Of a stretch of DNA of 64,000 nucleotides, positions 6,003-45,200 are shown one piece after another. Position 1 is the first letter of the stretch, and each line of letters opens with the position of its first letter. The DNA comes from Solitalea lacus. GTDB taxonomy: Bacteria; Bacteroidota; Bacteroidia; Sphingobacteriales; Sphingobacteriaceae. The stretch spans positions 806,001-870,000 of the forward strand of contig NZ_CP091740.1 of the NCBI RefSeq assembly GCF_022014595.1, given 5' to 3'. Below the pieces are notes generated by a model, which did no database searches, was not told the DNA's origin, and saw nothing but the letters and a program-made list of their open reading frames with translations. The translations under genes were made by a program, and so were the position numbers.

Positions 6003-7097
6003 ATGTTTAAGTCATTAGAGGAAACATATAAAGGCAAAAAAGTTTTTTTAACAGGGCATACAGGCTTCAAAGGAGCGTGGATGTTGAAAATCTTATCAAT
6101 GTTAGGTGCTAAAGTTCAAGGCTATGCATTGGCACCTGAAAATGAGTTTGATCTCTATCATCTTATTGATGGAGACAAGCTATGTACTTCAACCATTGGC
6201 GATTTGAGGGATAAAGAACTTTTAAAGAATACAATTCTTAGTTTTCAACCCGATTTTATTTTTCATTTGGCAGCGCAGCCTCTTGTTCGATTGTCTTATG
6301 AAATTCCTTCTGAAACATTTGAGGTAAACGCTATTGGCACCGCCAACTTATTGGATGGTGTACGTTTATTGAATAAACCCTGTAATGTTGTTTTAATCAC
6401 TACTGACAAGGTATATCACAATAACGAATGGGAATATCCTTATCGTGAAACTGACCGTTTAGGTGGTTATGATCCTTACAGTGCCAGTAAAGCTTGCGCG
6501 GAATTAGTGATTGATTCTTATCGTAATTCTTTTTTCAACCTTAAGAAATACGATGAACATCAAAAAGCTATTGCGGTAACTCGAGCCGGGAATGTGATAG
6601 GGGGAGGCGATTGGGCAAAAGATCGATTGATGCCTGATATTGCACGCGCATTGGTTAAGAACGAAACTATTGAAATTCGCAATCCTAATTCCGTTAGGCC
6701 TTGGCAACATGTATTGGAACCGGTTATGGGTTACCTTTTATTAGGATTAAAATTGAAAGAAGACCCGATTCGATTCGCACAAGCCTACAATTTCGGCCCT
6801 TATGCTACTGATGCCTTGCCGGTAGTTGATATGGTTGAATTGGCCATTAAGGCTTGGGGATGCGGAAATTACAAAATAAAGAATGCTGCTGATCAACCAC
6901 ATGAAGCAGCTTTGCTAAAGCTTGATATAAGTAAAGCTGGAGTGGATTTAGTTTGGCGGCCTAAAATGAATGCTAGTCAAGCAATTCAGTTTACCATTGA
7001 TTGGTATAAACAATTTGATATCAATAGAGATGATATAGATGGGTTTACGAATAGCCAAATAAACAATTTTGAGATACTAAATACTGAAATTCAGTGA
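6003..7097 (+). CDS. rfbG: CDP-glucose 4,6-dehydratase
   Basis: A 364-residue extended SDR. The NAD motif TGHTGFKGAW near residue 17 and the TTDKVY / YSASK catalytic segments are those of RfbG. It converts CDP-glucose to CDP-4-keto-6-deoxyglucose. ATG at 6003 gives the usual RfbG N-terminus; a TTG at 5991 would overlap rfbF and add four residues. The gene ends in a GTGA overlap with the next SDR, so translation is coupled. Confidence 0.93.
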   Translation: MFKSLEETYKGKKVFLTGHTGFKGAWMLKILSMLGAKVQGYALAPENEFDLYHLIDGDKLCTSTIGDLRDKELLKNTILSFQPDFIFHLAAQPLVRLSYEIPSETFEVNAIGTANLLDGVRLLNKPCNVVLITTDKVYHNNEWEYPYRETDRLGGYDPYSASKACAELVIDSYRNSFFNLKKYDEHQKAIAVTRAGNVIGGGDWAKDRLMPDIARALVKNETIEIRNPNSVRPWQHVLEPVMGYLLLGLKLKEDPIRFAQAYNFGPYATDALPVVDMVELAIKAWGCGNYKIKNAADQPHEAALLKLDISKAGVDLVWRPKMNASQAIQFTIDWYKQFDINRDDIDGFTNSQINNFEILNTEIQ

Positions 7098-8155
7098 ATG
7101 AAATCATTAGACAAGACCTGGAATATATAAGTAACTCAGGTATTGAATGGGGTAGATTTAAGGATAAAACAGTTCTTATTTCGGGAGCAAATGGATTCAT
7201 TCCATCTTATCTGGTTGAATCATTGTTGTTTGTAAATAATTTGCTGAATCAGAATACAAGAGTAATCGCATTAGTCAGAAACAAAGAAAAGGCGGAAAAA
7301 AGATTTAGAAATTATTTAAATAATCACTTATTAGAAATCTTGGTTCAAGACGTTTGTCAACCAATTGATCTTAATATTAAAGTAGATTATATTATTCATG
7401 CAGCAAGTCAAGCTAGTCCAAAGTATTATTCAATCGATCCTGTCGGAACTCTGAATGCAAATATTTTTGGAACAATAAATCTATTATCATTAGCTGTTAA
7501 ATCTTCTGCTCAAAGTTGTCTGTTTTTTAGTTCCAGTGAAGTTTACGGTGAAGTTGAAGAGGATTTTATTCCTATTAAAGAGGATGGTTATGGTTATTTA
7601 AATCCAACTTCTGTTAGGTCTTGTTATGCGGAAAGTAAAAGAATGGGAGAAACAATTTGTGTAAGCTGGGCACATCAGTATGGGGTTGATGTGAAAATTG
7701 TAAGACCATTTCATACTTACGGACCTATGATGGATTTAACCGATGGGAGAGTATTTGCAGATTTTGTTGCTGATATAGTTCTCAATCGTGATATAATAAT
7801 GAAAAGTGATGGGACAGCAGTTAGAGCCTATTGTTATTTATCTGATGCAATCATCGCCTATTTTTTAGTATTGTTAAAAGGGGCTCAAGCTGAAAGTTAT
7901 AATATAGGGAACCCTCAAGGTGTATGCAGTGTAATTGATTTAGCTAATAAATTAGTTTCATCTTTCCCAGAGAAAAAACTAAAAGTGATAAGAAAGGAAA
8001 ATATGGATTCAAATTATATTCCTTCTAAAGCAAATAAAGTTATCCCAAATATAGATAAGGTTACTTCTTTAGGATGGAAACCCAAAGTTTCAATTGAAGA
8101 AGGATTTACTCGAACAGTAATTAGTTATGAATCTAATTTAGATTTAACTTTTTAA
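7094..8155 (+). CDS. NAD(P)-dependent epimerase/reductase (SDR) of the CDP-dideoxyhexose block
   Basis: A 353-residue extended SDR with the Rossmann motif SGANGFIPS (about 30-38), the SSSEVYGE segment (about 149) and a YAESK catalytic Tyr-Lys pair (about 177). It starts at GTG inside a GTGA overlap with rfbG. In CDP-dideoxyhexose loci this position is taken by the sugar-specific SDR (paratose/abequose synthase, 5-epimerase, or the YerF-type reductase acting after YerE). Because a YerE-like gene follows 11 nt on, a YerF-like side-chain reductase or a C5 epimerase are the best guesses; the sequence alone does not decide. The gene has more AT-rich third positions than rfbF and rfbG. Confidence 0.65.
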   Translation: MNEIIRQDLEYISNSGIEWGRFKDKTVLISGANGFIPSYLVESLLFVNNLLNQNTRVIALVRNKEKAEKRFRNYLNNHLLEILVQDVCQPIDLNIKVDYIIHAASQASPKYYSIDPVGTLNANIFGTINLLSLAVKSSAQSCLFFSSSEVYGEVEEDFIPIKEDGYGYLNPTSVRSCYAESKRMGETICVSWAHQYGVDVKIVRPFHTYGPMMDLTDGRVFADFVADIVLNRDIIMKSDGTAVRAYCYLSDAIIAYFLVLLKGAQAESYNIGNPQGVCSVIDLANKLVSSFPEKKLKVIRKENMDSNYIPSKANKVIPNIDKVTSLGWKPKVSIEEGFTRTVISYESNLDLTF

Positions 8156-8166
8156 TAAATTCAATT

Positions 8167-9888
8167 ATGAAAGCATCAGATTTTATAGCTGATTTCTTGG
8201 AAAAAAAAGGCATTAAAAGTGTTTTTGAACTTTCAGGAGGGATGATCACTCACCTTTTAGATTCTATTAGCCTGCGTACAAATATAAATATTGTTACTAT
8301 GCATCACGAGCAATCTGCTGCATTTGCAGCAGATGCTTATGGTAGAGTTACCGGTTTGCCTGGTATTGCTTTGGCTACAAGTGGGCCTGGAGCTACCAAT
8401 TTGTTAACCGGTATTGGAAGTTGTTATTTTGATTCTTCTCCTGCAATTTTTATTACTGGTCAGGTTAATCGTCATGAACAAAAAGGGAATAAAGCAATAA
8501 GACAATTAGGTTTTCAAGAAACTGATATTGTTGCTATGGCAAAACCTATAACAAAAGCATGTTTTCAAATTCAAAATGCTGAAGCTATTCCCAATGTCTT
8601 TGATGAAGCTTTTAAAATAGCATTAGAGGGTAGACCAGGGCCTGTTTTAATTGATATTCCAATGGATGTTCAAAGGGCTCAAATTGAATCGAAACCTTTC
8701 ATTGACCACCAGGAAAGTTATTCAACTCTCCTTCCCGAGAATGAAATATTGAATTTAATTGCAGAAATACAAAAGGCTAAGAAGCCTTTAATACTAGTAG
8801 GTAGAGGGGTTAAGGCTGCTCAGTGTCAATTTGAATTTGATCAATTTGTAGAACAAACACAAGTACCTGTTATGAGCACTTTACTTGCGGTTGATGCCAT
8901 TGAATATGAACATGAATTGCGGGTTGGTTTTATAGGCAGCTATGGTAACCGATGGGCAAATATAGCTTTCGGCGAATGTGACCTTTTAATTGTTTTGGGA
9001 AGTAGATTAGATATTCGTCAAACAGGAGCTGATACCAAATTTATTGAGAATAGGAAAATCTATCATGTAGATTGTGAAGCAGGTGAAATTAATAATAGGG
9101 TTAAGGGCTGTGTCCCATTTCTAACAGATTTAAAGATCTTCTTTAAACAATTCGCTGCACTTAGCAGTAAGTTCGAATTTTCTAAGCCGACTGAATGGCT
9201 CCAATATATAAACGATTTAAGAACTCAATGGCCTGACACAAAAGAGTTAGATCCTGTAGGTATAAACCCTAATGTATTCATGTGTCAGTTATCTGAAGCA
9301 AGTGAAAAGGCTTTTGCATATTTAGCTGACGTAGGTAGCCATCAAATGTGGGCAGCTCAATCTTTAAGGCTAAGGAAGGATCAGTTCTTTATAACTTCAG
9401 GTGGAATGGGGGCTATGGGATTTGCATTGCCAGCTGGTATCGGTGCCTGTATCGCCCATGAAAATGCTCCTGTTGTTGTCATAGTAGGGGATGGTTGTAT
9501 GCAGATTAATATTCAAGAGATGCAAACGATTGTTCGCAATAAGCTACCTGTTAAAATGGTGGTGATGAACAATAGGAGTTTAGGAATGATTAGACAATTT
9601 CAGGATAGTTATTTTGACTCCAGATACCAATCTACATACTGGGGCTATGATGCTCCTGATTTTGAAAAAGTTGCAGTGGCTTATGGCATAGAAGCTAAAA
9701 CAATCACAGCACCGGAAGAAATTGGACAAGCTGTTAAATGGTTATGGGATAATGACAATAGTGATATGCCATTGTTGTTACAGGTTATGATTGATACTCA
9801 TACTAATACTTATCCTAAAATAGCATTTGGCAAACCATTAACTGAAATGGAGCCATTTGCAAAACCAATTGAAATGGAAGGAACTTAG
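8167..9888 (+). CDS. TPP-dependent acetolactate-synthase-like enzyme (YerE-like)
   Basis: The 573-residue protein has the three-domain fold of acetolactate synthase: an N-terminal PYR domain with the catalytic Glu in HHEQSAAFAADAYGR (about 46), a central FAD/DHAP-type domain, and a C-terminal PP domain with the TPP/Mg motif GDGCMQINIQEMQ ending in NN (about 444-470). A biosynthetic IlvB role is unlikely because no ilvN or other ilv genes are near. Inside an rfbI-F-G-H set the matching family is YerE, a TPP flavoenzyme that transfers a two-carbon unit from pyruvate to CDP-4-keto-3,6-dideoxyglucose to make the branched sugar yersiniose. This is inference from fold plus context. Confidence 0.75.
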   Translation: MKASDFIADFLEKKGIKSVFELSGGMITHLLDSISLRTNINIVTMHHEQSAAFAADAYGRVTGLPGIALATSGPGATNLLTGIGSCYFDSSPAIFITGQVNRHEQKGNKAIRQLGFQETDIVAMAKPITKACFQIQNAEAIPNVFDEAFKIALEGRPGPVLIDIPMDVQRAQIESKPFIDHQESYSTLLPENEILNLIAEIQKAKKPLILVGRGVKAAQCQFEFDQFVEQTQVPVMSTLLAVDAIEYEHELRVGFIGSYGNRWANIAFGECDLLIVLGSRLDIRQTGADTKFIENRKIYHVDCEAGEINNRVKGCVPFLTDLKIFFKQFAALSSKFEFSKPTEWLQYINDLRTQWPDTKELDPVGINPNVFMCQLSEASEKAFAYLADVGSHQMWAAQSLRLRKDQFFITSGGMGAMGFALPAGIGACIAHENAPVVVIVGDGCMQINIQEMQTIVRNKLPVKMVVMNNRSLGMIRQFQDSYFDSRYQSTYWGYDAPDFEKVAVAYGIEAKTITAPEEIGQAVKWLWDNDNSDMPLLLQVMIDTHTNTYPKIAFGKPLTEMEPFAKPIEMEGT

Positions 9889-10030: not shown

Positions 10031-12025
10031 ATGAGTTATAAATTTAAAGTTACTCTGTTAATAAAAATAATTATACTATTTGTGTTTTCATCAGAGTATA
10101 ATAGTATGTTATTTCAACCTTTCGTAAATACTTTTATAAATAATGGTTTAGTAGTAAATCCATGGCAGTTTTATTTTGAGCATAATTTGAATTCGGATTC
10201 ATTCCCTTATCATTCATTAATGTTGCTGATTTTGAGCCCATTTGCAACATTAAGCTATTTATTACATACTGAAGCTTTCTTTAAGCTTCCATTGTTGCTG
10301 GGAGACTTGGGGATTTTATATATACTACTTAAATCTTTTCCAAATAAAGAGAAAAGCGTTTATCTGTATTATTTCTTTAATCCAATTATTATATATGCCA
10401 TCTACATACATTCTCAACTAGATATAATACCTACTGCAATATTGTTATATGGAATTTATTTACTAATGGTTAATAAGCACAACTATTCTTCTGTAGTGTT
10501 TGGATTGGCCCTAGCAACAAAAATTCATGTAATTATAGCATTGCCATTAATATTTTTTTATCTGTATAAAATTGAAAATATTAAAGTTGCAATCAAGTAT
10601 ATAGTGGTTTCTCTAGCCATATTTTTATTATTTGACCTTCCGTTTCTATTTTCGGATGGCTTTGTTCAAATGGTACTTTTAAATCCAAAACAGTCATTGC
10701 TGTTCGATTCATTTTACAATATTGGATCAGTCAATATATTGCTTCCAATAGCGGCTATTTTAACGATTTATTATCATTTTTTCAATCAGGATAAAGTAAA
10801 TAATGATTTGCTTTATTTTTATTTTGGAATTCTATTTTCTGCAATTATCTTTTTTATTTATCCTGCTGCAGCTTGGTATGTCTGGATGGTTCCTTTTGTT
10901 TCAATGTACTTTATTCAAAACAACAATAAAAAAAGTAAATTACTTTACATAGGTTTTTCAATTGTTTATCTGATATTTTTTATTTTCTTTCATAAAAGTG
11001 AGTACAAAGACATTTTCTTTTTTGGTGATGATATAAATTGGAAAATACACAATGACAGATTTGCAGATATTTCCTTTACTTTATTAGAAGTTACCCTTGT
11101 TTCTATAATGTATGCATTTTATAAATACGGAATCAAAAGTAATTCTATGTATAGAAAGCAGTTAAATTTAATAATTGGTATCGGTGGTGATAGTGGAGTA
11201 GGAAAAACAACACTTTTGAATAATCTACAAAATTTATTAGGTAATAAACTACTAAAAATCGAAGGAGACGGAGAACATAAATGGGAAAGAGGCGATGACA
11301 ACTGGAATAAGTTTACACATTTGGATCCTAAAGCAAATCATATACATAGACAATCCGAAGCAATATTTAGTTTAAAACATAATAAAACTATATTTCGGAG
11401 TGAGTATCTACATTGTAATGGTAAATTTTCGAAGCCTAAAAAAGTTAAGCCAAAAGAGTTCATAGTTATTGCAGGGTTGCATCCATTTTATTTGCCAAAA
11501 CTGAGAAAAAATATAGATCTGAAAATTTATATAGATACGGACGATACTTTAAGAAGGCATTGGAAAATCATAAGAGATACTAAGAAAAGAGGTTATAGTA
11601 CTCAGAAGATACTAGAACAAATTGAGATTAGAATGGAAGATGCAAAAAAATATATCTATCCTCAAAAAGAGTTTGCGGATATGATTATTAAATATTATCC
11701 AGTAAATACTTTTGTTCTAGGAAAAGAAAATGAAGCAATAAGTTTAGGTTTGAGAATTACTTTTGATGCTAATATACACATTGAAGGTATTTTGGATAGA
11801 TTAAATTGTCAATTTACATGGGACTATAATGATGATTTAAAGTCCCAATTTATAGAAGTTGAGAATAGACCTCAGGCAAATTTTGAAAATATAGCATTTG
11901 ATTCTATTGAAAATATAAGTGAGATTATAGCTTCAGAAATTAAATGGGAAGATGGATATGAAGGTTTAATTCAACTAATATCTTTAAAAATGATCAGTGA
12001 AAAATTAAAAGAGAATCATAAATGA
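10031..12025 (+). CDS. Fusion: polytopic membrane domain (GT-C-like) + P-loop kinase
   Basis: A 664-residue protein in two parts. Residues 1 to about 375 form roughly ten membrane segments with loop features (for example the HSQLDIIPTAI segment near 133) resembling bacterial GT-C or DUF2029-type polyprenyl-sugar transferases. From about 380 a soluble domain begins with a Walker A motif GGDSGVGKTT and looks like the uridine kinase/phosphoribulokinase family (EGDGEHKWER; a second conserved core around VIAGLHPFYLP). It would phosphorylate a small polyol or sugar while tethered to the membrane. ATG at 10031 follows 142 non-coding bases. It opens a run of ATGA and TTGA overlaps with the HAD, aldolase and nucleotidyltransferase genes. 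The pairing of these two domains is not one I recognise from a characterised enzyme. Confidence 0.6.
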   Translation: MSYKFKVTLLIKIIILFVFSSEYNSMLFQPFVNTFINNGLVVNPWQFYFEHNLNSDSFPYHSLMLLILSPFATLSYLLHTEAFFKLPLLLGDLGILYILLKSFPNKEKSVYLYYFFNPIIIYAIYIHSQLDIIPTAILLYGIYLLMVNKHNYSSVVFGLALATKIHVIIALPLIFFYLYKIENIKVAIKYIVVSLAIFLLFDLPFLFSDGFVQMVLLNPKQSLLFDSFYNIGSVNILLPIAAILTIYYHFFNQDKVNNDLLYFYFGILFSAIIFFIYPAAAWYVWMVPFVSMYFIQNNNKKSKLLYIGFSIVYLIFFIFFHKSEYKDIFFFGDDINWKIHNDRFADISFTLLEVTLVSIMYAFYKYGIKSNSMYRKQLNLIIGIGGDSGVGKTTLLNNLQNLLGNKLLKIEGDGEHKWERGDDNWNKFTHLDPKANHIHRQSEAIFSLKHNKTIFRSEYLHCNGKFSKPKKVKPKEFIVIAGLHPFYLPKLRKNIDLKIYIDTDDTLRRHWKIIRDTKKRGYSTQKILEQIEIRMEDAKKYIYPQKEFADMIIKYYPVNTFVLGKENEAISLGLRITFDANIHIEGILDRLNCQFTWDYNDDLKSQFIEVENRPQANFENIAFDSIENISEIIASEIKWEDGYEGLIQLISLKMISEKLKENHK

Positions 12026-12702
12026 GATATAAAGGAATACTACTTGATATAGATAATACACTTTATGACTATAATTTAACTCACTCTTTTGCAAAAAATA
12101 AAGTATTCGATTATTGTATTAGAGAATTTCATTTATCAAAAACTGAAATTAGTTTAGCTTATGATAAGGCTAGAAATAATGTTCATGTTGAATTAAGTGA
12201 AACAGCTGCTTCGCATAACAGACTATTGTATTTTCAAAAGATGTTAGAAATTCTTAAAATCAATACTCTACAGTATAGTTTTGAGCTATATAATATCTAT
12301 TGGGATAATTTCTTAGAAGTATTAAAACCATTTGATGGAATATATGATTTGCTTGAGAAGTATGAAAATAAAATTTGTTTAATCACAGACCTTACAGCTC
12401 ATATACAATACCGTAAAATAAAAAAAATGGGGCTTGAAAAACATTGCTCTATGATTGTTACGAGTGAAGAGGCGGGGAGAGAAAAGCCTCATCCTTATAT
12501 GTTTATGTTAGCGTTAAATAAATTGAATTTAAGACCTGGTGAAGTGTGCATGATCGGAGATAGCTTTAAAAAAGATATCATTGGTGCAACGGCTTTCGGT
12601 ATTGAATCTATTTGGTTTAATCATGAGGAGAAAATAGTGTCATGTGATAATATCCTTATAAGAGAGGTACGGAATTTCAAAGATATTCTAGAGTTATTAT
12701 GA
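12022..12702 (+). CDS. HAD-superfamily phosphatase
   Basis: A 226-residue HAD hydrolase. Motif I is LLDIDNTLYDYN (nucleophile Asp near residue 8), motif II is the Thr in LITDLT (about 124), motif III the Lys in REKPHP (about 156), and motif IV GDSFKKDI (about 182). A helical cap lies between motifs I and II, as in subfamily I phosphatases such as phosphoglycolate phosphatase. It overlaps both neighbours by ATGA, so its substrate should be an intermediate of the kinase-aldolase-nucleotidyltransferase cassette. The exact phosphoester cannot be read from the sequence. Confidence 0.8.
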   Translation: MRYKGILLDIDNTLYDYNLTHSFAKNKVFDYCIREFHLSKTEISLAYDKARNNVHVELSETAASHNRLLYFQKMLEILKINTLQYSFELYNIYWDNFLEVLKPFDGIYDLLEKYENKICLITDLTAHIQYRKIKKMGLEKHCSMIVTSEEAGREKPHPYMFMLALNKLNLRPGEVCMIGDSFKKDIIGATAFGIESIWFNHEEKIVSCDNILIREVRNFKDILELL

Positions 12703-13769
12703 GGGAAGTAAAAGATTTTGTAGAAATATCAAAATATGCTGGAGAACGACTTGATTTAATTCAGTCAGCTGGAGGGAACAGTTCGGTTAAGTTAAGTAAT
12801 GGTCAGATGCTTATTAAAGCATCCGGATTTTTGCTAAGTGATATTAATGAAGAGGCAGGGTATTCAAGAGTTTTTACTGCACCCGTAGCTGCAATTGTGA
12901 AAAATGAAGTCATTATTAACTCCGTTAACAAACGTCAAAGAGAATTGTTAACAGCACAACTTTTAAAAGAGGCAACGATAGATAAACAAAACCGTCCTTC
13001 AATTGAAACATTACTTCATTCATTTCTTCTGAAATATACACTTCATACGCATTCAATAGTAGTGAATATGGTAGTTGTACAGAATAACTGGAAAGAGATA
13101 TTAAATTCTATTTTCAAAGAAGAGGTACTAGCTTACGTTGGATATGAAACGCCGGGAATTGAATTAGCTATTGCTTTAGATAAAGAATTGCAAAGATTTG
13201 ATAAAATTCCGAATATCATTTTTTTACAAAACCATGGTTTGATTGTTACATCTGATGACAAAGATGAGATTAAAACTCTTACTGAGGATGTTTTAGAAAA
13301 GATCGAAAAGTTTATGAATATCGATATGTCAAGATATAAACTCACGAACGATATTAGTAATTTATTTAATAGTATCTCGGACAACCCGAATATTTCCTAT
13401 CTATGTGAGGATAAGTTTTTAAATGAACAATTACTAAAAAGCGAGAAACTGTTTTTTAATTCTCCTTTTTGCCCTGATACTTTCGTTTATTGCAATGTTA
13501 GCCCAGTTAAGCTTGAAAGTTTATCTGATAAAAAAAGCCTAATAGATTATAAGGTGAAGTGTAACGAATTTCCAAAGATAGTAATCTACGATGGTAAGCT
13601 TTTTTTTAGGGCTTTGACTATAAAGAAAGCAAAAGAAATAGAAGAAGTTTTTAAATTTCATATTATGGTTTTATCACAAAACGAAAATAAAACTATAAAC
13701 TTCTTAGAGAAGGAAGAATTGGCTTATCTCGCAAATTGGGAAGCTGAAAAATTTAGACAGGAATTATAA
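12699..13769 (+). CDS. Class II aldolase/adducin-family protein with C-terminal extension
   Basis: The N-terminal ~200 residues match the class II (zinc) aldolase/epimerase fold: GGNSSVKL (about 26), the zinc ligands in LHTHS (about 115) and NHGLIV (about 177). The remaining ~150 residues contain SPFCPDTFVYCN (about 255) and end in WEAEKFRQ. This resembles the extra region of larger RhaD-type aldolases and makes the protein (356 aa) much longer than fuculose- or ribulose-phosphate enzymes (about 220 aa). It could cleave, form or epimerise a short phosphorylated ketose. ATGA overlap with the HAD gene and a 13-nt gap to the nucleotidyltransferase support a shared pathway. Confidence 0.75.
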   Translation: MREVKDFVEISKYAGERLDLIQSAGGNSSVKLSNGQMLIKASGFLLSDINEEAGYSRVFTAPVAAIVKNEVIINSVNKRQRELLTAQLLKEATIDKQNRPSIETLLHSFLLKYTLHTHSIVVNMVVVQNNWKEILNSIFKEEVLAYVGYETPGIELAIALDKELQRFDKIPNIIFLQNHGLIVTSDDKDEIKTLTEDVLEKIEKFMNIDMSRYKLTNDISNLFNSISDNPNISYLCEDKFLNEQLLKSEKLFFNSPFCPDTFVYCNVSPVKLESLSDKKSLIDYKVKCNEFPKIVIYDGKLFFRALTIKKAKEIEEVFKFHIMVLSQNENKTINFLEKEELAYLANWEAEKFRQEL

Positions 13770-13782
13770 AAAATAAATAGAA

Positions 13783-15429
13783 ATGCACATAGTAATACCA
13801 ATGTCCGGAGTTGGTAATAGATTTATTGAAGCTGGTTACAGTGAGCCTAAACCTTTAATAATAATTGACGGAAAGCCAATCATTGAGCATGTTTGTGATT
13901 TATTTCCAGGAGAAACAAAGTTTACATTTATTTGTAATTCTAAACATTTGGCTGAGACGAATATTAGATCGGTTTTACTAAGAATCAAGCCAAATGCAAA
14001 TATAATTGAGATACCAAATCATAAAAAAGGTCCTGTATATGCAGTTTCTTTTGTGGAGGATTTGATAGAAAATGAGGAAGAGGTAATTGTAAATTATTGT
14101 GATTTCGGAACCTATTGGAATTATCATGAATTTTTAAGTCATACCAGAGAAAGAGGTGCTGATGGTGCAATTCCTGCCTATAAAAGATTTCATCCTCATA
14201 TGTTAGGAACTACCAACTATGCTTTTATGAGAGATGAAAAGCAATGGATGCTTGAAATAAAAGAAAAAGAGCCATTTACAAACGATCGCACAAATGAGTA
14301 TGCTTCAAATGGGACTTATTATTTCAAAAAAGGATCTTATGTAAAAAAGTATTTTAAAGAATTAATGGATAAAGGGATTAGCCTAAATGGTGAATATTAC
14401 GTATCGCTTATCTATAATCTTTTGGTTCAGGATAATTTAAAAGTATCCATTTATGATATTCAGCATATGCTTCAATGGGGGACACCTCAGGATGTAGAGG
14501 AGTACTTAAATTGGTCAAAATATTTCAAGGACGCTTGTAATGAAACGATTAAACCACAGGCATTAGAAAACAGTATTACCTTGATTCCACTTGCTGGTCG
14601 AGGTAATAGATTTGCCAAAGCAGGCTATAAAGATCCAAAACCTCTTTTAGAAATTAGTGGAAAACCCATGATTATTCAGGCTGCAAACTCCTTACCTAAT
14701 AGTCAAGAACAAGTTTTTGTAACGTTGCAGGAACACTTGAATAATTATCCATTGGAAAAAGCTTTAAAAAGCGAATTTCCTGATTCTAAAATAATAGCAA
14801 TTAATAATGTTACAGAAGGACAAGCTATTACTTGTAATTTGGGTTTGAAAGAAGTAGATGAGAATTCTTCGCTATTAATAGCTGCAACAGATAATGGGAT
14901 GATTTATGATAAGGAAAAATATCAAAAATTAATAGACGACGAAAACGTGGATGCTATTATTTTTACATTTAGACACCATATCTCTAGTAAAAATAATCCT
15001 CAAATGTATGGTTGGATAAAAACAGACGAAAATGATAATGCTGTTAAGGTTTCTGTAAAAGTTCCAATTTCTGAAAATCCATTTAATGATCATGCTATAG
15101 TAGGCACATTTTATTTTAGGAAAATAGCATATTTCAAGAAAGCTTTGCAAAGTTTGTTAGAAAAGGATATAAAAGTAAATGGGGAGTTTTATGTTGATAG
15201 TTTAATGGGGGAACTTATAGATCTTGGTCTTAATGTGAAAGTTCTTGAAGTTGATGATTATATCTGTTGGGGAACTCCTGAGGATTACGAGACATTTGTT
15301 TATTGGCAAAGTTTTTTTCATAAAGCATCTTGGCATCCCTATCGATTAGAAAGCGATATTACCGTAAGCAAAGACAAAATAGAAGAATTAAATAAGAAGT
15401 ATTACGCATTTGAGCAATCATACAATTGA
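13783..15429 (+). CDS. Tandem nucleotidyltransferase (two NTP-transferase domains)
   Basis: A 548-residue protein made of two homologous ~265-residue nucleotidyltransferase domains. Domain 1 begins at residue 1 with MSGVGNRFIEAGYSEPKP and ends in QWGTPQDVEEYLNW. Domain 2 begins near 267 with LAGRGNRFAKAGYKDPKP and ends in CWGTPEDYETFVYW. Both keep the nucleotide loop and the Lys-Pro sugar-phosphate motif, so both may be active. Single-domain relatives are common in capsule loci as uncharacterised sugar or polyol nucleotidyltransferases. In this cassette it should activate the product of the kinase/aldolase/HAD steps as an NDP derivative. The substrates and whether the two halves use different ones are unknown. 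Confidence 0.8.
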   Translation: MHIVIPMSGVGNRFIEAGYSEPKPLIIIDGKPIIEHVCDLFPGETKFTFICNSKHLAETNIRSVLLRIKPNANIIEIPNHKKGPVYAVSFVEDLIENEEEVIVNYCDFGTYWNYHEFLSHTRERGADGAIPAYKRFHPHMLGTTNYAFMRDEKQWMLEIKEKEPFTNDRTNEYASNGTYYFKKGSYVKKYFKELMDKGISLNGEYYVSLIYNLLVQDNLKVSIYDIQHMLQWGTPQDVEEYLNWSKYFKDACNETIKPQALENSITLIPLAGRGNRFAKAGYKDPKPLLEISGKPMIIQAANSLPNSQEQVFVTLQEHLNNYPLEKALKSEFPDSKIIAINNVTEGQAITCNLGLKEVDENSSLLIAATDNGMIYDKEKYQKLIDDENVDAIIFTFRHHISSKNNPQMYGWIKTDENDNAVKVSVKVPISENPFNDHAIVGTFYFRKIAYFKKALQSLLEKDIKVNGEFYVDSLMGELIDLGLNVKVLEVDDYICWGTPEDYETFVYWQSFFHKASWHPYRLESDITVSKDKIEELNKKYYAFEQSYN

Positions 15430-15794
15430 GTAGAATACGAAAAGAATTAAAAAGATTTTTAGTCGCCGGATTAAGTGCAGTAGGTACTGATCTATTTATG
15501 TACTATATATTCCTGAATTTTTTCTCCATTGGATTATCAAAAGCAATTTCATTTCTTTTAGGTACGATTGTGGCCTATTTAATTAATAAATATTGGACTT
15601 TTGAAAAAAATCAAAAATCTTTAAAGGAAATATTTCAATTCGCTATACTGTATAGTTGCACACTTGGGGTAAATGTTATGACAAATAAGATAGTTTTAGA
15701 TAATACTCAAATTGTATTTATTGCATTTTTTGTAGCTACTGGATTTAGTACAGTCTTAAATTTTATTGGTCAAAAATTTTGGGTATTTAAATGA
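15426..15794 (+). CDS. GtrA-like small membrane protein
   Basis: A 122-residue protein with four predicted membrane segments and the GtrA-family start RFLVAGLSAVGTDLFMYY and end NFIGQKFWVF. GtrA proteins are thought to help move polyprenyl-linked glucose across the membrane. It starts at TTG in a TTGA overlap with the nucleotidyltransferase and is followed 14 nt on by a DPM1-like GT2. This is the standard GtrA/GtrB pairing and suggests that a polyprenyl-phosphate-linked donor is made and flipped here. Confidence 0.85.
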   Translation: MSRIRKELKRFLVAGLSAVGTDLFMYYIFLNFFSIGLSKAISFLLGTIVAYLINKYWTFEKNQKSLKEIFQFAILYSCTLGVNVMTNKIVLDNTQIVFIAFFVATGFSTVLNFIGQKFWVFK

Positions 15795-15808
15795 ATTAGG
15801 CAATAGAT

Positions 15809-16507
15809 ATGAAACTATCAATAATAGTACCTTGTTACAATGAAGAGAAAAACATACCAGTTATATTAGAAAAATTTAATGAAATTATAAAAAGAGATGA
15901 TATTGAAGTTATTTTAGTAGATAATGGATCGACAGATAATAGTCAAAATGTTTTTAATAAACTAACGCCTAATTATTCTTTTGCAAAAGTTGTAAAGGTA
16001 AAAGTAAATGAAGGCTATGGTTTTGGAATCTATTCAGGTCTCAAAGAAGCGAGTGGTGAATTTATAGGCTATACACATGCCGATATGCAAACAGATCCTA
16101 CTGATGTCCTGAAATCACTAGAAATTATCGTAAAACAAGTAAATCCCAAAAATTGCTATGTGAAAGGAGATAGGAAAGGAAGACCTTTTTTTGATCAGTT
16201 TTTTACTTCGGGTATGAGTTTGTTTGAATCGATTTATTTGGGCACAAAACTTTGGGACATCAATGCGCAACCAAATATATTTCACAGAAGTTTTTTTACA
16301 GGTTTAGATAATTTCCCTAAGGATTTTTCTCTCGATTTATATTTACTCTATATGGCAAAAAAACGAGGTCTTAAAGTTATTCGATTCGATGTAATTTTCC
16401 CTCCTCGAATTTTTGGTGAATCTAGTTGGAATAAGGGATTAGCTTCAAAATGGAAGTTTATCAAGAGAACAATAGAATTTAGTGTTAAGTTAAAAAGAGA
16501 ACTGTGA
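15809..16507 (+). CDS. GT2 glycosyltransferase, dolichyl-phosphate-sugar synthase-like (GtrB-like)
   Basis: A 232-residue GT-A protein starting SIIVPCYNEEKNIP with the DNGSTDNS motif (about 36-43), the DXD-like HADMQTDP (about 89) and a C-terminal FGESSWNKG segment typical of DPM1/GtrB-type enzymes. No membrane helices follow the catalytic domain, so it would act at the cytoplasmic face, probably with the GtrA-like protein just upstream. The donor could be the unusual NDP derivative made by the preceding genes. Confidence 0.75.
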   Translation: MKLSIIVPCYNEEKNIPVILEKFNEIIKRDDIEVILVDNGSTDNSQNVFNKLTPNYSFAKVVKVKVNEGYGFGIYSGLKEASGEFIGYTHADMQTDPTDVLKSLEIIVKQVNPKNCYVKGDRKGRPFFDQFFTSGMSLFESIYLGTKLWDINAQPNIFHRSFFTGLDNFPKDFSLDLYLLYMAKKRGLKVIRFDVIFPPRIFGESSWNKGLASKWKFIKRTIEFSVKLKREL

Positions 16508-16508
16508 T

Positions 16509-17111
16509 ATGGAATTTATTGCCCATAGAATTAATACAATAAAAGAATTGAAACAAGTTCCGAATGAATATGGAGTCGAACTTGATTTAAGAGATTATGG
16601 AGAAAAGTTAATACTCCAACATGACCCATTTAAAGACGGGGAAGATTTTGAAGAATATCTCAATCACTACAAACATGGCACTTTGATATTGAATATTAAA
16701 AGTGAAAGAATTGAACATAGAGTTTTAGAATTGATTAAACAATACAATATTAAAAAATATTTTTTTCTCGATAGTTCATTCCCAATGATACATCAACTTT
16801 CAAAAGGTGGAGAAAAAAAAATTGCTCTGAGGTTTTCAGAATTTGAAGGAATGGATACATTACTCGCCATGGCAGGAAAAATAGATTGGATTTGGGTTGA
16901 TTGCTTTACAAAATTATCAATCACAAAAGAAAATTACACAATCCTAAAAGACCTCGGCTATAAATTCTGCCTTGTTTCACCAGAACTTCAGAAACAAGAA
17001 GAAAAAATGAATGGATATAAAGATTATATTAATTCACAGGAAATAAAATTTGATGCTATTTGCTGTAAAATTTACAATATAGTTAAATGGCTTCCCGTCT
17101 CACGACCATAA
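16509..17111 (+). CDS. GDPD/PLC-like TIM-barrel phosphodiesterase, short form
   Basis: A 200-residue protein related to glycerophosphodiester phosphodiesterases. The active-site elements are in the expected order: AHR at residues 4-6, the acidic pair in GVELDLR (about 22-28) and the second His in LQHDPF (about 37). Proteins of this type have about 240 residues or more, so it is a compact version. It lies one base after the GT2 gene. In capsule loci with alditol- or glycerol-phosphate activation such proteins could process a phosphodiester, but no role is established for this one. Confidence 0.65.
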   Translation: MEFIAHRINTIKELKQVPNEYGVELDLRDYGEKLILQHDPFKDGEDFEEYLNHYKHGTLILNIKSERIEHRVLELIKQYNIKKYFFLDSSFPMIHQLSKGGEKKIALRFSEFEGMDTLLAMAGKIDWIWVDCFTKLSITKENYTILKDLGYKFCLVSPELQKQEEKMNGYKDYINSQEIKFDAICCKIYNIVKWLPVSRP

Positions 17112-17147
17112 TGGGTAGTAATTAGCCAAACCATAACTCAATTTAAA

Positions 17148-18845
17148 ATGATAAACTTAATAGGAATATTAATTACTTTGTGTTTGCTTTCTACTTTATT
17201 TGTTTTAACCGGAAGGGTAATTCTAGTAATTGCGAATATAAAAAATAAAACTACTATACCTCTAATCGTAAGCTGTACTTATTTTCTTGGGATGGCAGTT
17301 TTCTTGGCAATTTGGAGGACCTTTTCGTTAATAACGGATAACGCACTACTTTCATTGGGAGTTACTTTAATGATTGCAGTCGCAATGATTTTTTTTAACT
17401 GGAAACAAACATGCCAATCATTCTTTTTTGATTTTTTTGAATTGATAAAATCTAAATGGTATTTGCTGTTTTCGATTTCTATATTTTTTTTTGTTGGGTT
17501 ATATTGGATTGGGTCATTTAATGAATTAAATCCCTTTACAATTATTGGATCCTTACATAGTCCCCGATACGCTAATTTTGCCACTTATGTAGTTGAATTT
17601 AATAGGGTTCCTGTCTTAGGTCAGAACTATGGACAATCCATGTTAGCTTCAATTCCTATGTTTTTGGGATTTAATAGTCCTTTACTAGCATTGAACTTCT
17701 GGTTGAGTATCACAATGATTAATTTTTCTTTATTGATTTATTCATTGTGTTTGTATTTGAATTGTAGCGCTAAATTTTCTACACTCGCTACTTTTTTAGT
17801 TCTTTTCGGAAATACAGCAATTTCATTTTTTCACATATTAAGTATAGATTCTGGTAGTCCATTTATCCTGAATGGATATACAGATTCAATAGCTTCAATT
17901 GGAACTTTTATCGTTGTATTGTTTTTTCTGAAAGATACCTTGGCCAATGACTCTAGTTTTAGGGATTCCATAAAAGAAATAGTATTAATTTTTTCTGTTT
18001 CTGTTTTTTGGAATATTGCTGCCCCACAGGATTCTATGTTTTTTGGATTCCTAATTGGTTTAGTACTGATTTTCTCTTTTAAAAATAATATAAAAGCAAC
18101 ATTTAAAATATTTATGTTGTTTTTAGTCTTTTCATGTGTCGGCATTTTTCAAGGAGGAATGTATACCCCTTCGAAATTTAAAGAAAGTATTGTTTTGCCT
18201 GGAATGATGGAGATTGGTAGCGGTGGTATAGCTATAAATCCTGGTGTTCCCTTCTTTGTAGGTATAGGTGGAGCTTGGGAATATGGGAATAAAAATGTGA
18301 TAACACAGGTTTCAGATGTTAAGAAACAGATCACATCATCTCCTAAATTAAGTTTGGTGGTTTCGAAAATTTTAATTATAGAGCAATTAGTAACGAATAG
18401 TCTTAAAGTGGTATTTTGGCCTATGTTAGGGATTATTGGGTTGATTCTAATAATAAAAACAAATACTATAAAAAACGGAAATCTTTTCTCCAAGCAATTA
18501 GCATTGGATTATAACAAATTAATTTTTGTCGCATTCTTTGTTTTTTTTATTGGATTAATATTCAATTTGTTTTTCTCCATTTCTGGATATAAGTGGGAAT
18601 TAAGTAGATTCCTTATTTTAGGTTATTTTTTAGGTATGATTTGTTTAGTGCTCTGTTTGAATTTTCTATTTGAAAGCCGTATTCTATCAAAATGGAGCCT
18701 GTACTTTTTGATGGTTTTAATAACAATTGGGCCGATTGTTAATTCATTTGCAGTTATATTTGTAAATATTTTTTATACAAATAACAGGATTAGTTTTTTA
18801 GAGAAAATAAATATCTTGATTAATACATCTGGAATGATCAAATAA
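17148..18845 (+). CDS. Polytopic membrane protein, possible GT-C transferase or polymerase
   Basis: A 565-residue integral membrane protein with about 12 predicted segments (for example VILVIANI near 25 and LLFSISIFFFVGLYWI near 105) and a large loop around 125-160 containing PFTIIGSLHSPRYANFATY. I do not recognise a family signature. Size, topology and position between transferase genes and rfbH suggest either a polyprenyl-phosphate-sugar-dependent GT-C enzyme using the product of the GtrA/GtrB pair, or a second polymerase. About 140 AT-rich bases without a gene follow. Confidence 0.5.
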   Translation: MINLIGILITLCLLSTLFVLTGRVILVIANIKNKTTIPLIVSCTYFLGMAVFLAIWRTFSLITDNALLSLGVTLMIAVAMIFFNWKQTCQSFFFDFFELIKSKWYLLFSISIFFFVGLYWIGSFNELNPFTIIGSLHSPRYANFATYVVEFNRVPVLGQNYGQSMLASIPMFLGFNSPLLALNFWLSITMINFSLLIYSLCLYLNCSAKFSTLATFLVLFGNTAISFFHILSIDSGSPFILNGYTDSIASIGTFIVVLFFLKDTLANDSSFRDSIKEIVLIFSVSVFWNIAAPQDSMFFGFLIGLVLIFSFKNNIKATFKIFMLFLVFSCVGIFQGGMYTPSKFKESIVLPGMMEIGSGGIAINPGVPFFVGIGGAWEYGNKNVITQVSDVKKQITSSPKLSLVVSKILIIEQLVTNSLKVVFWPMLGIIGLILIIKTNTIKNGNLFSKQLALDYNKLIFVAFFVFFIGLIFNLFFSISGYKWELSRFLILGYFLGMICLVLCLNFLFESRILSKWSLYFLMVLITIGPIVNSFAVIFVNIFYTNNRISFLEKINILINTSGMIK

Positions 18846-18983: not shown

Positions 18984-20288
18984 ATGTTAAAAAATTTACA
19001 AGACGTTTTTCTTCAGGACAGTTGGAGAGAAATTGCTCGAAAGAAAACAACCCAAATAATTATTCCCGGTGAGAATTATATTCCTGTAACAGGTAAAGTA
19101 CTTGACGAAGAAGATTTATTATTAGGAATAGAGTCGGTTTTGGATGGCTGGTTGACAGCAGGACGATTCTCAAAACAATTTGAGAGTGAATTTGCGTCCT
19201 ATTTTGGGGCTTGCAAAGCATTATTGGTAAACTCAGGATCGTCGGCGAATCTTGTAGCTTTTTATACATTAACTTCTCCTAAGCTTGGTCAAAGAGCAAT
19301 TAAACCAGGGGATGAGGTAATTACTGTAGCAGCCGGTTTCCCTACAACTATCAATCCAATGATTCAGTTTGGAGCGGTTCCGGTGTTTGTTGATGTTGAT
19401 ATCTCTACACATAATATTAAAGCAGAAATGATTGAAGCAGCCGTTTCTCCGAAAACTAAAGCAATCATGATTGCTCATACATTAGGAAATCCATTTAATT
19501 TGGATGAGGTAATGCGTATTGCTAAAAAATATAATTTATGGGTAGTAGAAGATGACTGCGATTCATTGGGTGCTACTTATAATGGCCAAAAAACCGGAAC
19601 ATTCGGAGATATATCAACTTTTTCTTTTTATCCGGCCCACCATATTACTATGGGAGAAGGTGGGGCAGTTGTAATTAATAATCCTGAATTAGCCAAAATA
19701 GCAGAAAGCTACCGAGATTGGGGACGTGATTGTTATTGTGAACCTGGTAAAGATAATACTTGTGGATGTCGTTTCGGTCAACAGTTGGGTTCTTTGCCTT
19801 ATGGTTACGATCATAAATACACTTATTCTCATATTGGCTTTAATCTTAAAGTAACCGATATGCAGGCAGCTTTAGGCGTTTCTCAGTTCAAAAAGTTGGA
19901 TTCTTTTGTAGCCAAGCGTCGTGAAAACTACAAAGCTTTATATGAACGTATGAAGCAGTTCGAGGATATTTTCATTTTACCTGAAGCGACACCTAATTCA
20001 GATCCTTCCTGGTTCGGCTTCTTATTGACCCTTCGTGAAGGTGATGCTGCAGATCGCCATATGTTGGTACAACATTTAGAAAAAAATAAAATAGGTACTC
20101 GTTTGTTATTTGGTGGTAATTTATTGCGTCAACCAGCTTATGCAAATATTCAACATCGTGTGGTTGGCGATTTAACAAATACAGATATCATTATGAACCA
20201 ATCGTTTTGGTTAGGTGTTTGGCCTGGACTGGATGAAGGACATTGTGACTACATGGTAGAAGTAATTAGAGAGTATCTAAATTCTTAA
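18984..20288 (+). CDS. rfbH: CDP-6-deoxy-4-hexulose-3-dehydrase (E1)
   Basis: A 434-residue member of the DegT/aminotransferase fold. The PLP-lysine position is replaced by His in [13 protein letters not shown] (about 211-223), the hallmark of the PMP-dependent dehydrase E1. Cysteines for its [2Fe-2S] cluster are visible in [13 protein letters not shown] (about 252-264). It removes the C3 hydroxyl of CDP-4-keto-6-deoxyglucose with electrons from the E3 reductase encoded at 4175. It is separated from the other dideoxyhexose genes by the 9-kb cassette at 10031-18845 and is one base from the flippase gene downstream. Confidence 0.93.
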
Positions 20289-42566: not shown

Positions 42567-43646
42567 ATGCAACCACAAGTTAATCAATTAGATTTTAGCG
42601 GTCAAAACATTTATGTTGGTTTTGACGTGCACTTAAAAAGCTGGCAGGTTACCGTTATGACTGAACTGCTCACCCATAAAACCTTTTCGCAGCCACCTAA
42701 ACCCGAAGTATTACACCAGTATCTCCGGCAGAATTTCCCCGGCGGCACCTATCATTCCGCCTACGAAGCAGGCTTCTGCGGCTACTGGATCCATAACCGC
42801 TTGGAGGCTCTGGGCATTCACTCCATCGTGGTCAATCCTGCCGATATTCCCACCACCGATAAAGAAAAAGTGCAAAAAGAGGATTCCAGGGATAGCCGTA
42901 AAATCGCACACTCATTAAGAAGTGGCGCCTTAATCCCGATTTATGTTCCTTCCAGTAAAACCCTAGAGGACCGTTGTTTAGTTCGCACCCGGTCCATACT
43001 GACCAAGGACCTTGCCCGGTATAAAAACCGGGTAAAATCGTTCCTGTACTTTCATGGCATTGAACTACCTGCGCCCTTCACCAAAAAACAGTCCCACTGG
43101 TCGAAACCTTTTGTTGATTGGCTGGAAAGCATCGCTATGGCTGAGCAGAGTAGTAAAACGGCCCTGCAGGCCATGATTTTAGAAGCGAAACATTTGAGAG
43201 CCTCTGTATTGCAACTCACCCGGCATTTACTAGAGCTATCAAAAACAGGTACTTACCAGGAAGCCATCGCTTTACTGCGAAGTATCCCTGGCATCGGATT
43301 ATTAACGGCCATGACCTTATTAACCGAGCTGGAGACGATTAACCGGTTTAAAAACACGGATCAACTCTGCAGTTTTATAGGACTCATCCCCTCGACGCAT
43401 TCAAGTGGGGAAAAAGAACTAGCCGGTACTATCACCCGACGGGGGCATAGCGTGCTGCGCAGCGCCCTGATTGAAAGTGCATGGGTAGCCGCACGCCTGG
43501 ATCCGGCACTGACTAAAAGTTTTCATGAGTATTGCCGGCGAATGGAACCGAATAAGGCCATCGTAAGAATAGCCCGGAAATTACTCAACAGAATCAGGTA
43601 TGTATTAATAAACAAACAAGAATATGAGTGTGCAGTGGTTAAATAA
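42567..43646 (+). CDS. IS110-family transposase
   Basis: A 359-residue DEDD transposase/recombinase. The RuvC-like N-terminal part has YVGFDVHLKSWQV (about 16, catalytic Asp), EAGFCGYW (about 66, Glu) and KEDSRDSRKIAHSL (about 98, two Asp). The C-terminal transposase_20 part has LLRSIPGIGLLTAMTLLTE (about 237) and the STHSSGEK segment (about 279) with the conserved Ser region. It is identical to the copy at 44121. It would recombine IS ends and target without TSD formation, guided in this family by a bridge RNA. Confidence 0.93.
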   Translation: MQPQVNQLDFSGQNIYVGFDVHLKSWQVTVMTELLTHKTFSQPPKPEVLHQYLRQNFPGGTYHSAYEAGFCGYWIHNRLEALGIHSIVVNPADIPTTDKEKVQKEDSRDSRKIAHSLRSGALIPIYVPSSKTLEDRCLVRTRSILTKDLARYKNRVKSFLYFHGIELPAPFTKKQSHWSKPFVDWLESIAMAEQSSKTALQAMILEAKHLRASVLQLTRHLLELSKTGTYQEAIALLRSIPGIGLLTAMTLLTELETINRFKNTDQLCSFIGLIPSTHSSGEKELAGTITRRGHSVLRSALIESAWVAARLDPALTKSFHEYCRRMEPNKAIVRIARKLLNRIRYVLINKQEYECAVVK

Positions 43647-44120: not shown

Positions 44121-45200
44121 TTATTTAACCACTGCACACTCATATTCTTGTTTGTTTATTAATACATACCTGATTCTGTTGAGTAATTTCCGGGCTATTC
44201 TTACGATGGCCTTATTCGGTTCCATTCGCCGGCAATACTCATGAAAACTTTTAGTCAGTGCCGGATCCAGGCGTGCGGCTACCCATGCACTTTCAATCAG
44301 GGCGCTGCGCAGCACGCTATGCCCCCGTCGGGTGATAGTACCGGCTAGTTCTTTTTCCCCACTTGAATGCGTCGAGGGGATGAGTCCTATAAAACTGCAG
44401 AGTTGATCCGTGTTTTTAAACCGGTTAATCGTCTCCAGCTCGGTTAATAAGGTCATGGCCGTTAATAATCCGATGCCAGGGATACTTCGCAGTAAAGCGA
44501 TGGCTTCCTGGTAAGTACCTGTTTTTGATAGCTCTAGTAAATGCCGGGTGAGTTGCAATACAGAGGCTCTCAAATGTTTCGCTTCTAAAATCATGGCCTG
44601 CAGGGCCGTTTTACTACTCTGCTCAGCCATAGCGATGCTTTCCAGCCAATCAACAAAAGGTTTCGACCAGTGGGACTGTTTTTTGGTGAAGGGCGCAGGT
44701 AGTTCAATGCCATGAAAGTACAGGAACGATTTTACCCGGTTTTTATACCGGGCAAGGTCCTTGGTCAGTATGGACCGGGTGCGAACTAAACAACGGTCCT
44801 CTAGGGTTTTACTGGAAGGAACATAAATCGGGATTAAGGCGCCACTTCTTAATGAGTGTGCGATTTTACGGCTATCCCTGGAATCCTCTTTTTGCACTTT
44901 TTCTTTATCGGTGGTGGGAATATCGGCAGGATTGACCACGATGGAGTGAATGCCCAGAGCCTCCAAGCGGTTATGGATCCAGTAGCCGCAGAAGCCTGCT
45001 TCGTAGGCGGAATGATAGGTGCCGCCGGGGAAATTCTGCCGGAGATACTGGTGTAATACTTCGGGTTTAGGTGGCTGCGAAAAGGTTTTATGGGTGAGCA
45101 GTTCAGTCATAACGGTAACCTGCCAGCTTTTTAAGTGCACGTCAAAACCAACATAAATGTTTTGACCGCTAAAATCTAATTGATTAACTTGTGGTTGCAT
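44121..45200 (-). CDS. IS110-family transposase, second copy
   Basis: 359 residues, identical to the product at 42567 and carrying the same DEDD and C-terminal serine-region motifs. Sequence identity between the copies indicates a very recent event. In this copy the gene follows the element's long non-coding left end, the order seen in IS110-group members that carry the bridge RNA upstream of the transposase. Confidence 0.93.
   Translation of the reverse strand: MQPQVNQLDFSGQNIYVGFDVHLKSWQVTVMTELLTHKTFSQPPKPEVLHQYLRQNFPGGTYHSAYEAGFCGYWIHNRLEALGIHSIVVNPADIPTTDKEKVQKEDSRDSRKIAHSLRSGALIPIYVPSSKTLEDRCLVRTRSILTKDLARYKNRVKSFLYFHGIELPAPFTKKQSHWSKPFVDWLESIAMAEQSSKTALQAMILEAKHLRASVLQLTRHLLELSKTGTYQEAIALLRSIPGIGLLTAMTLLTELETINRFKNTDQLCSFIGLIPSTHSSGEKELAGTITRRGHSVLRSALIESAWVAARLDPALTKSFHEYCRRMEPNKAIVRIARKLLNRIRYVLINKQEYECAVVK

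Follow-up and report, generated by a model that had tools for sequence, protein, structure and literature searches.

Introduction

The Gtr modules of Shigella and Salmonella phages, like ArnC/ArnT, combine a GtrA-family protein, a GT2 polyprenyl-phosphate-sugar synthase and a variable GT-C glycosyltransferase; they are mobile, can stand alone, and use a common sugar nucleotide of the host. Here we describe a mobile cassette of similar build in Solitalea lacus, a member of the Bacteroidota whose genome is a single 4.40 Mb contig. The cassette lies in a stretch of 64,000 nucleotides (NZ_CP091740.1, positions 806,001 to 870,000; hereafter the window, from whose first letter our coordinates are counted). 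Whereas Gtr modules draw on the host for their donor, this cassette brings a donor pathway of its own, consisting of a kinase, a HAD phosphatase, a class II aldolase, a nucleotidyltransferase and a GDPD-fold protein. Its GT2 is also without transmembrane helices, in contrast to the C-terminal helices of the Gtr GT2, and one of its GT-C proteins is fused to a phosphoribulokinase (PRK) domain. Its starting material appears to be ribulose 1,5-bisphosphate (RuBP), best known as the photosynthetic CO2 acceptor, from which the cassette would build a surface sugar.

Several parts of this system have relatives elsewhere. In the haloarchaeal non-carboxylating pentose bisphosphate pathway, a FucA-type aldolase acts on ribulose 1-phosphate (Ru1P), and the likeness to the cassette would extend to RuBP itself, to a HAD RuBP phosphatase and to the lack of RuBisCO (PMC9700705); none was found in the S. 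lacus genome. However, haloarchaeal RuBP is made by a ribose-1-phosphate kinase (RbsK) and a ribose-1,5-bisphosphate isomerase and is then broken down (PMC9700705), whereas cassette RuBP would come from PRK within a glycan cassette. Neither of those two haloarchaeal enzymes is among the cassette genes, and an RbsK-type pathway was ruled out because the kinase differs. Calvin-cycle PRK has the same fold and the same residues for binding ribulose 5-phosphate (Ru5P), whereas the PRK of the cassette shares its protein with a GT-C, and that of phages with an aldolase, in organisms that mostly lack RuBisCO. Similarly, glycerophosphodiester phosphodiesterases share the TIM-barrel fold and the H-R, E-x-D and H catalytic residues of the cassette GDPD, from which they differ in that the cassette protein has 200 aa, matches no Pfam family and is found with nucleotidyltransferases. 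In a ribofuranosyltransferase system that uses phosphoribosyl pyrophosphate and a phosphatase, a HAD phosphatase helps to put a pentofuranose on a glycan; the cassette differs in having no phosphoribosyltransferase and in its nucleoside diphosphate (NDP)- and polyprenyl-linked donors.

Genes of the Cassette

Seven tightly packed genes had been singled out at 10031-17111, and their positions, overlaps and gaps are borne out, with successive spacings of -4, -4, +13, -4, +14 and +1 nt. The family assignments of this original prediction likewise hold, by Pfam for the kinase (PRK), HAD, Aldolase_II, two NTP_transferase domains, GtrA_DPMS_TM and GT2, and by fold for the GDPD. Together with an eighth gene of the same block, they are as follows (DPMS, dolichyl-phosphate-mannose synthase; pLDDT, predicted local distance difference test).

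10031-12025, + strand: GT-C glycosyltransferase (residues 1-370) fused to a PRK domain (residues 376-664), from Pfam PRK (1.4e-38), fold and residues
12022-12702, + strand: HAD phosphatase, nearest to ribulose-1,5-bisphosphate 5-phosphatase (NF053830, 175.8 bits, 1.1e-51)
12699-13769, + strand: class II (FucA/RhaD-type) aldolase, possibly acting as an epimerase (Aldolase_II, 4e-13; solved relatives FucA)
13783-15429, + strand: tandem nucleotidyltransferase with two intact domains (two PF00483 stretches)
15426-15794, + strand: GtrA/DPMS-type membrane protein (PF04138, 3.4e-20, above cut-off)
15809-16507, + strand: GT2, DPMS-like (best solved relative Pyrococcus furiosus DPMS, 5mlz, 4e-14)
16509-17111, + strand: compact GDPD-fold protein, predicted phosphodiesterase (AlphaFold pLDDT 94.9; Z 17 to solved GDPDs)
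17148-18845, + strand: multi-transmembrane protein of 565 aa, no Pfam match, probable acceptor-specific GT-C

A Phosphoribulokinase Fused to a Glycosyltransferase Fold

Gene 1 had been read as a membrane-tethered kinase. The kinase stands and is PRK-like, but the simple tether does not, as the membrane half is a complete GT-C fold. In the AlphaFold model (pLDDT 91.9), the C-terminus matches PRK with a Z of 29, while the N-terminus matches glycosylphosphatidylinositol mannosyltransferase I (GPI-MT1, with dolichyl phosphate mannose; Z 28.2), ALG3 (26.5), ALG6 (25.9), PimE (19.7) and ArnT (19.6). These relatives depend on dolichyl- or undecaprenyl-phosphate sugars, and use of such a donor is predicted from the fold. 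The best solved relative of the kinase half is the PRK 6hzk (2e-38), compared with 4e-9 for the best uridine kinase. With the PRK matches about 30 orders of magnitude stronger, a uridine kinase was ruled out.

The residues of Methanospirillum hungatei PRK that bind Ru5P or ATP are His55, Arg59, Tyr98, His100, Lys151 and Arg154 (Kono et al., PMC5241800). By sequence alignment, H416, R420, Y459, H461, K512 and R515 of gene 1 are these six residues, at a constant offset of 361, and 69 of 69 intact homologues keep them without change, along with D413, D516 and R520. Because every published Ru5P-binding residue checked is kept, the product of the kinase is probably RuBP. Against the curated PRK family NF005655 the protein scores 191.8 bits, below the cut-off of 236.

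The remaining active sites are intact as well. The HAD protein is the top match to RuBP 5-phosphatase in the genome (the next HAD reaches 66 bits) and its catalytic D9, D11, K155 and D185 are kept in 73/73 homologues, as are the FucA-type Glu and three His of the aldolase (E103, H116, H118, H179) in 77/77. In the nucleotidyltransferase, the signature and the Asp/Lys residues are kept in both domains (83 homologues), which form two separate genes in two loci (L019, L090); both resemble sugar-1-phosphate enzymes, and the second weakly matches IspD (1.4e-6). Gene 7 is a GDPD by fold and by catalytic residues (H6, R7, E24, D26, H38, N62 and K64, kept in 70/70), and phosphodiesterase activity is predicted from these. 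The GT2, at 232 aa, is without a transmembrane part, which GtrA may supply. Finally, 59 of 78 cassettes have variable multi-transmembrane open reading frames next to or inside them, a pattern that a constant donor pathway with a changing acceptor-specific transferase would produce.

Recurrence Across Bacterial Phyla

To survey the cassette, 84,980 species genomes were scanned with an alignment of the tandem nucleotidyltransferase, yielding 181 confirmed relatives, of which the best 80 were made into loci. The nucleotidyltransferase recruited these loci, so its own frequency is uninformative; family profiles were seeded from cassette members, and many loci are metagenome assemblies. In Bacteroidota, Campylobacterota, Firmicutes, Cyanobacteria and Proteobacteria, as well as on an Escherichia coli plasmid, the nucleotidyltransferase is again accompanied by this kinase, HAD, class II aldolase, GT2 and GDPD. 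By family profiles, all six core families are present in 57 of 90 inspected loci; under strict thresholds, they are present in 40 of the 54 loci that extend at least 6.9 kb to each side of the nucleotidyltransferase. The original prediction would have fallen had the genes never co-occurred elsewhere, and the 40 full loci refute that possibility.

Members that are absent from a locus (L044, L090, L092, L024, L055, L042, L043, L083) are mostly found elsewhere in the same genome: the aldolase in G395; the kinase with the aldolase, and the GDPD, in G400 and G401; and the GDPD in G402, G404, G405, G406 and G408. Among 395 Bacteroidota genomes sampled separately, three have the kinase fusion, and exactly these three hold a strong GDPD match (Fisher p 1e-7). 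Within its own class the cassette is rare: the aldolase occurs in 4/395 genomes, all four of which hold the other core families (at separate sites in G284). The association of the cassette genes is not due to chance. Across phyla, the proteins are close. Poseidonibacter and Flavobacterium gawalongense each have a nucleotidyltransferase of 80% identity (best segment), and for the F. gawalongense kinase the figure is 85%, which points to horizontal transfer.

Kinase Loss in Picocyanobacteria and Phage Versions

Marine Synechococcus (L081) and two Prochlorococcus (L093, L094) retain a kinase half behind the GT-C half, but one that has lost its P-loop and every catalytic residue. This destruction affects three of three marine picocyanobacterial cassettes (p 2e-5), in which the other cassette enzymes keep their sites, and two of the three genomes have form I-type RuBisCO matches. 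In viral contigs and in the named cyanophages S-SM2 (genes SSM2_204-208) and Bellamy, soluble versions of a nucleotidyltransferase, a GT61 glycosyltransferase, a class II aldolase, a mini-HAD and a mini-GDPD stand in a row, with no kinase. That the cassette kinase is lost in picocyanobacteria or omitted by cyanophages, where the hosts make RuBP in the Calvin cycle, agrees with RuBP as an intermediate.

Another phage group points the same way. In 22 of 80 viral contigs (among L159-L185, e.g., L172:6646-8049), PRK is fused to a class II aldolase, with the Ru5P residues kept in 24/24, which suggests that kinase and aldolase act consecutively or cooperate. The fusion adjoins nucleotidyltransferase domain 1 and a mini-GDPD, often with a mini-HAD, and three such contigs (L162, L172, L184) also hold domain 2 and GT61. 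Of the 80 viral loci, 73 have a GDPD-like protein along with the nucleotidyltransferase, and these two proteins are the constant core. The kinship of the mini-GDPD with the cassette GDPD is confined to the active-site region (83% probability, 41 columns), and the mini-HAD belongs to another HAD type, which suggests that function is kept more strictly than sequence. The bacterial aldolase query found no homologue in the named phages because the phage aldolases, which were found via the nucleotidyltransferase, are too divergent.

The glycosyltransferase that goes with the phage versions is GT61 or WavE. At L170:9298-10074, where PRK, nucleotidyltransferase and GDPD of a phage lie together, a WavE-family protein stands in for GT61 beside them. 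WavE is suggested to be a transferase for the same donor as GT61.

Taken together, sequence, fold and comparison establish the gene set, its intact active sites, the PRK and GT-C identities and the linkage to RuBP supply, and they tie PRK to surface-glycan genes in cyanophages as well as across many phyla; the organisms concerned mostly lack RuBisCO.

A Proposed Donor Pathway From Ribulose 1,5-Bisphosphate

We propose a self-contained, Gtr-like glycosylation cassette with its own donor pathway, starting with the conversion of Ru5P to RuBP and ending in a glycan, and we give this reading a probability of roughly 50%. The first step, in which the PRK domain would phosphorylate Ru5P, is well supported by the residues described above. 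The HAD and the aldolase would then convert RuBP to a pentulose 1-phosphate, with the aldolase either cleaving or, like the related ribulose-5-phosphate 4-epimerase, epimerising by a retro-aldol reaction. One nucleotidyltransferase domain would turn the pentulose 1-phosphate into an NDP-1-pentulose. Enzymes of the GDPD superfamily can work through cyclic phosphates, and the most economical chemistry for the GDPD would be conversion of the NDP-1-ketose to a 1,2-cyclic phosphate and on to the anomeric 2-phosphate, from which the other nucleotidyltransferase domain would form an NDP-2-pentulose. GT2 with GtrA would make the polyprenyl-phosphate pentulose, and the GT-C enzymes (the fused one and the variable partner) would pass it to an extracellular glycan; these last steps are supported by homology and fold. 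The middle steps are chemical reasoning, chosen so that no conserved enzyme is left without a task, the two nucleotidyl transfers and the phosphodiesterase included. All of the reactions are inferred, as are the shift of the phosphate, the order in which HAD and aldolase act and the sugar that results, which would be a pentulofuranose, for example ribulose or xylulose. In its full detail, with RuBP serving outside CO2 fixation as a pentulofuranose precursor, NDP at C1, a GDPD-catalysed phosphate shift to C2, a second NDP transfer and polyprenyl/GT-C delivery, the scheme is tentative and probably wrong in some part. The original logic of phosphorylation, dephosphorylation, cleavage or epimerisation, NTP activation and polyprenyl transfer is supported. 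As for the predicted product, an unusual NDP-activated small polyol or short sugar, the NDP-sugar logic is retained and the polyol is not, as the PRK-like kinase points to Ru5P and RuBP and hence to a pentulose.

A number of observations weigh against this reading. The HAD score of 175.8 bits is far under the RuBP-phosphatase (NF053830) cut-off of 330. Four metagenome-assembled genomes seem to be true exceptions to the full gene set, with no cassette-type aldolase found in that of L048 and no kinase fusion in those of L051, L064 and L073. Phormidesmis (L085) keeps an intact kinase despite RuBisCO and a PRK of its own, and the genome of L094 is without a RuBisCO match, being a single-cell genome that is probably incomplete. 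The phage HAD is of a different type from the cassette HAD. No organism with a known glycan structure was tied to the cassette. Xylulose, a pentulofuranose, occurs in a few bacterial glycans, for example in Devosia submarina, with no biosynthetic route described there (PMC8707391), and the locus for the xylulose-containing O-antigen of Yersinia enterocolitica O:10 was annotated without any cassette genes (PMC11380512). Ketofuranoses can therefore be made otherwise, and xylulose is not established as the cassette product. For the Vibrio cholerae wavE/fructose genetics and the Campylobacter jejuni RM1221 xylulose genes, the literature gave no usable gene assignment.

If the proposal is correct, the cassette would represent a new sugar-nucleotide pathway and might supply the missing biosynthesis of ketofuranoses found in glycans of bacteria, and cyanophages may draw a Calvin-cycle intermediate into glycan synthesis. 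With the phosphate shift, it would also be a novel way of activating a ketose nucleotide at the anomeric carbon. The five-enzyme hypothesis is directly testable with soluble phage proteins.

Alternative Explanations

The same enzymes could also serve other ends. Kinase, HAD and aldolase might act in series to cleave RuBP or Ru1P, with a C2 or C3 fragment (derived from glycolaldehyde or dihydroxyacetone phosphate) activated as a small NDP-linked substituent. The trio does match the haloarchaeal RuBP phosphatase and Ru1P aldolase steps, which lead to dihydroxyacetone phosphate and ethylene glycol (PMC9700705), and the phage PRK-aldolase fusions fit as well. We consider this route unlikely, as cyclic sugars are the normal substrates of a DPMS-like GT2, GtrA and GT-C, the two nucleotidyltransferase domains look like enzymes for sugar 1-phosphates, and two nucleotidyl steps are hard to place.

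Slightly less probable is a CDP-polyol-like pathway, in which activation of a pentulose or polyol phosphate would be followed by its transfer as a phosphodiester (phospho-polyol) group, while the GDPD trims or recycles it. A phosphodiesterase in the core and the weak IspD match would suit it. However, CDP-polyol pathways combine a reductase with a cytidylyltransferase, and Pfam finds no reductase or other oxidoreductase in the cassette; transfer relies on polyprenyl-phosphate-sugar/GT-C machinery as opposed to a teichoic-acid polymerase, and GT61 or WavE glycosyltransferases are the partners in phages.

It is doubtful, too, that one operon merely joins two independent modules, namely nucleotidyltransferase, GT2, GtrA and GDPD for one sugar, and kinase, HAD and aldolase for pentose salvage. 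Both groups stand at separate sites in G284 (L018/L055) and in the L090/L092 genomes, and the Elusimicrobia loci L064 and L073 hold the first group only. However, separated groups are usually both still in the genome, the kinase is fused to a GT-C, and phages without GT2, GtrA and GT-C still link PRK/aldolase to nucleotidyltransferase and GDPD. Least probable is that the cassette is a common variant of some nucleotide-sugar pathway that the literature already describes. In favour of this stand the frequency of the cassette, which makes it hard to believe that it went unnoticed, and the restriction of our literature search to open-access work. Against it, no description was found in that work, and PHROGs lists most phage homologues as of unknown function. 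The original suggestion of an undescribed unit agrees with this result, and its homologues do not all belong to a characterised standard-sugar pathway.

Genomic Settings and Insertion Site

Besides surface-polysaccharide loci, the proposed glycosylation cassette occupies plasmids of E. coli (IncR), Hirschia and Azospirillum; in a Pseudomonas (L088) it stands alone between ssb and uvrA, flanks recognised from sequence. Cultured, non-pathogenic carriers other than S. lacus include Flavobacterium phragmitis and Halobacillus halophilus. The E. coli copy (L010:6022-14984) is complete, comes from human stool and has an IS26 transposase gene downstream, and a near-identical plasmid is present in a frog isolate. 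These two plasmids are the only E. coli carriers found; none was seen in chromosomal O-antigen loci of the species. Aldolase homologues on rhizobial and related plasmids (L013, L014) lie in sugar-transport or catabolic contexts and are not the cassette.

Plasmids of Scandinavium (L015:3134-10692) and Ruegeria (L016:8914-13056) carry a second, related system with a distant GDPD-like protein, a beta-phosphoglucomutase-like HAD, one or two single-domain nucleotidyltransferases, a small protein (cupin-like in L016) and WavE. A search for this GDPD/WavE system in E. coli found none.

In S. lacus, the cassette interrupts a CDP-dideoxyhexose operon between the following genes.

8167-9888, + strand: thiamine pyrophosphate (TPP)-dependent enzyme of the host operon, left flank (TPP_enzyme domains; directly followed by rfbH in five relatives)
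18984-20288, + strand: rfbH-like CDP-dideoxyhexose dehydratase of aminotransferase fold, right flank (81-84% identical beside the TPP gene in cassette-free relatives)

Insertion as a unit had been predicted for seven genes; the insertion is upheld and the number is not, as the unit comprises eight low-GC genes at 10031-18845. The GC content is 29.6% over 10031-17111, compared with 36.1% in the preceding operon genes of the left flank, and gaps of 142 and 138 nt, one per side, set the block off from its neighbours. Five members of the family have the TPP-enzyme gene (67-74% identical) immediately before rfbH (81-84%), and because both flanking genes are adjacent there, the block is an insertion. 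A short-chain dehydrogenase/reductase and the TPP-dependent enzyme (7094-9888) of this CDP-3,6-dideoxyhexose operon resemble a pathway of the yersiniose type for branched sugars. Elsewhere in the window, two identical transposase-like genes of 359 aa lie in opposite orientation (42567-43646 and 44121-45200), followed by a reverse-transcriptase-like gene at 46120-47397.

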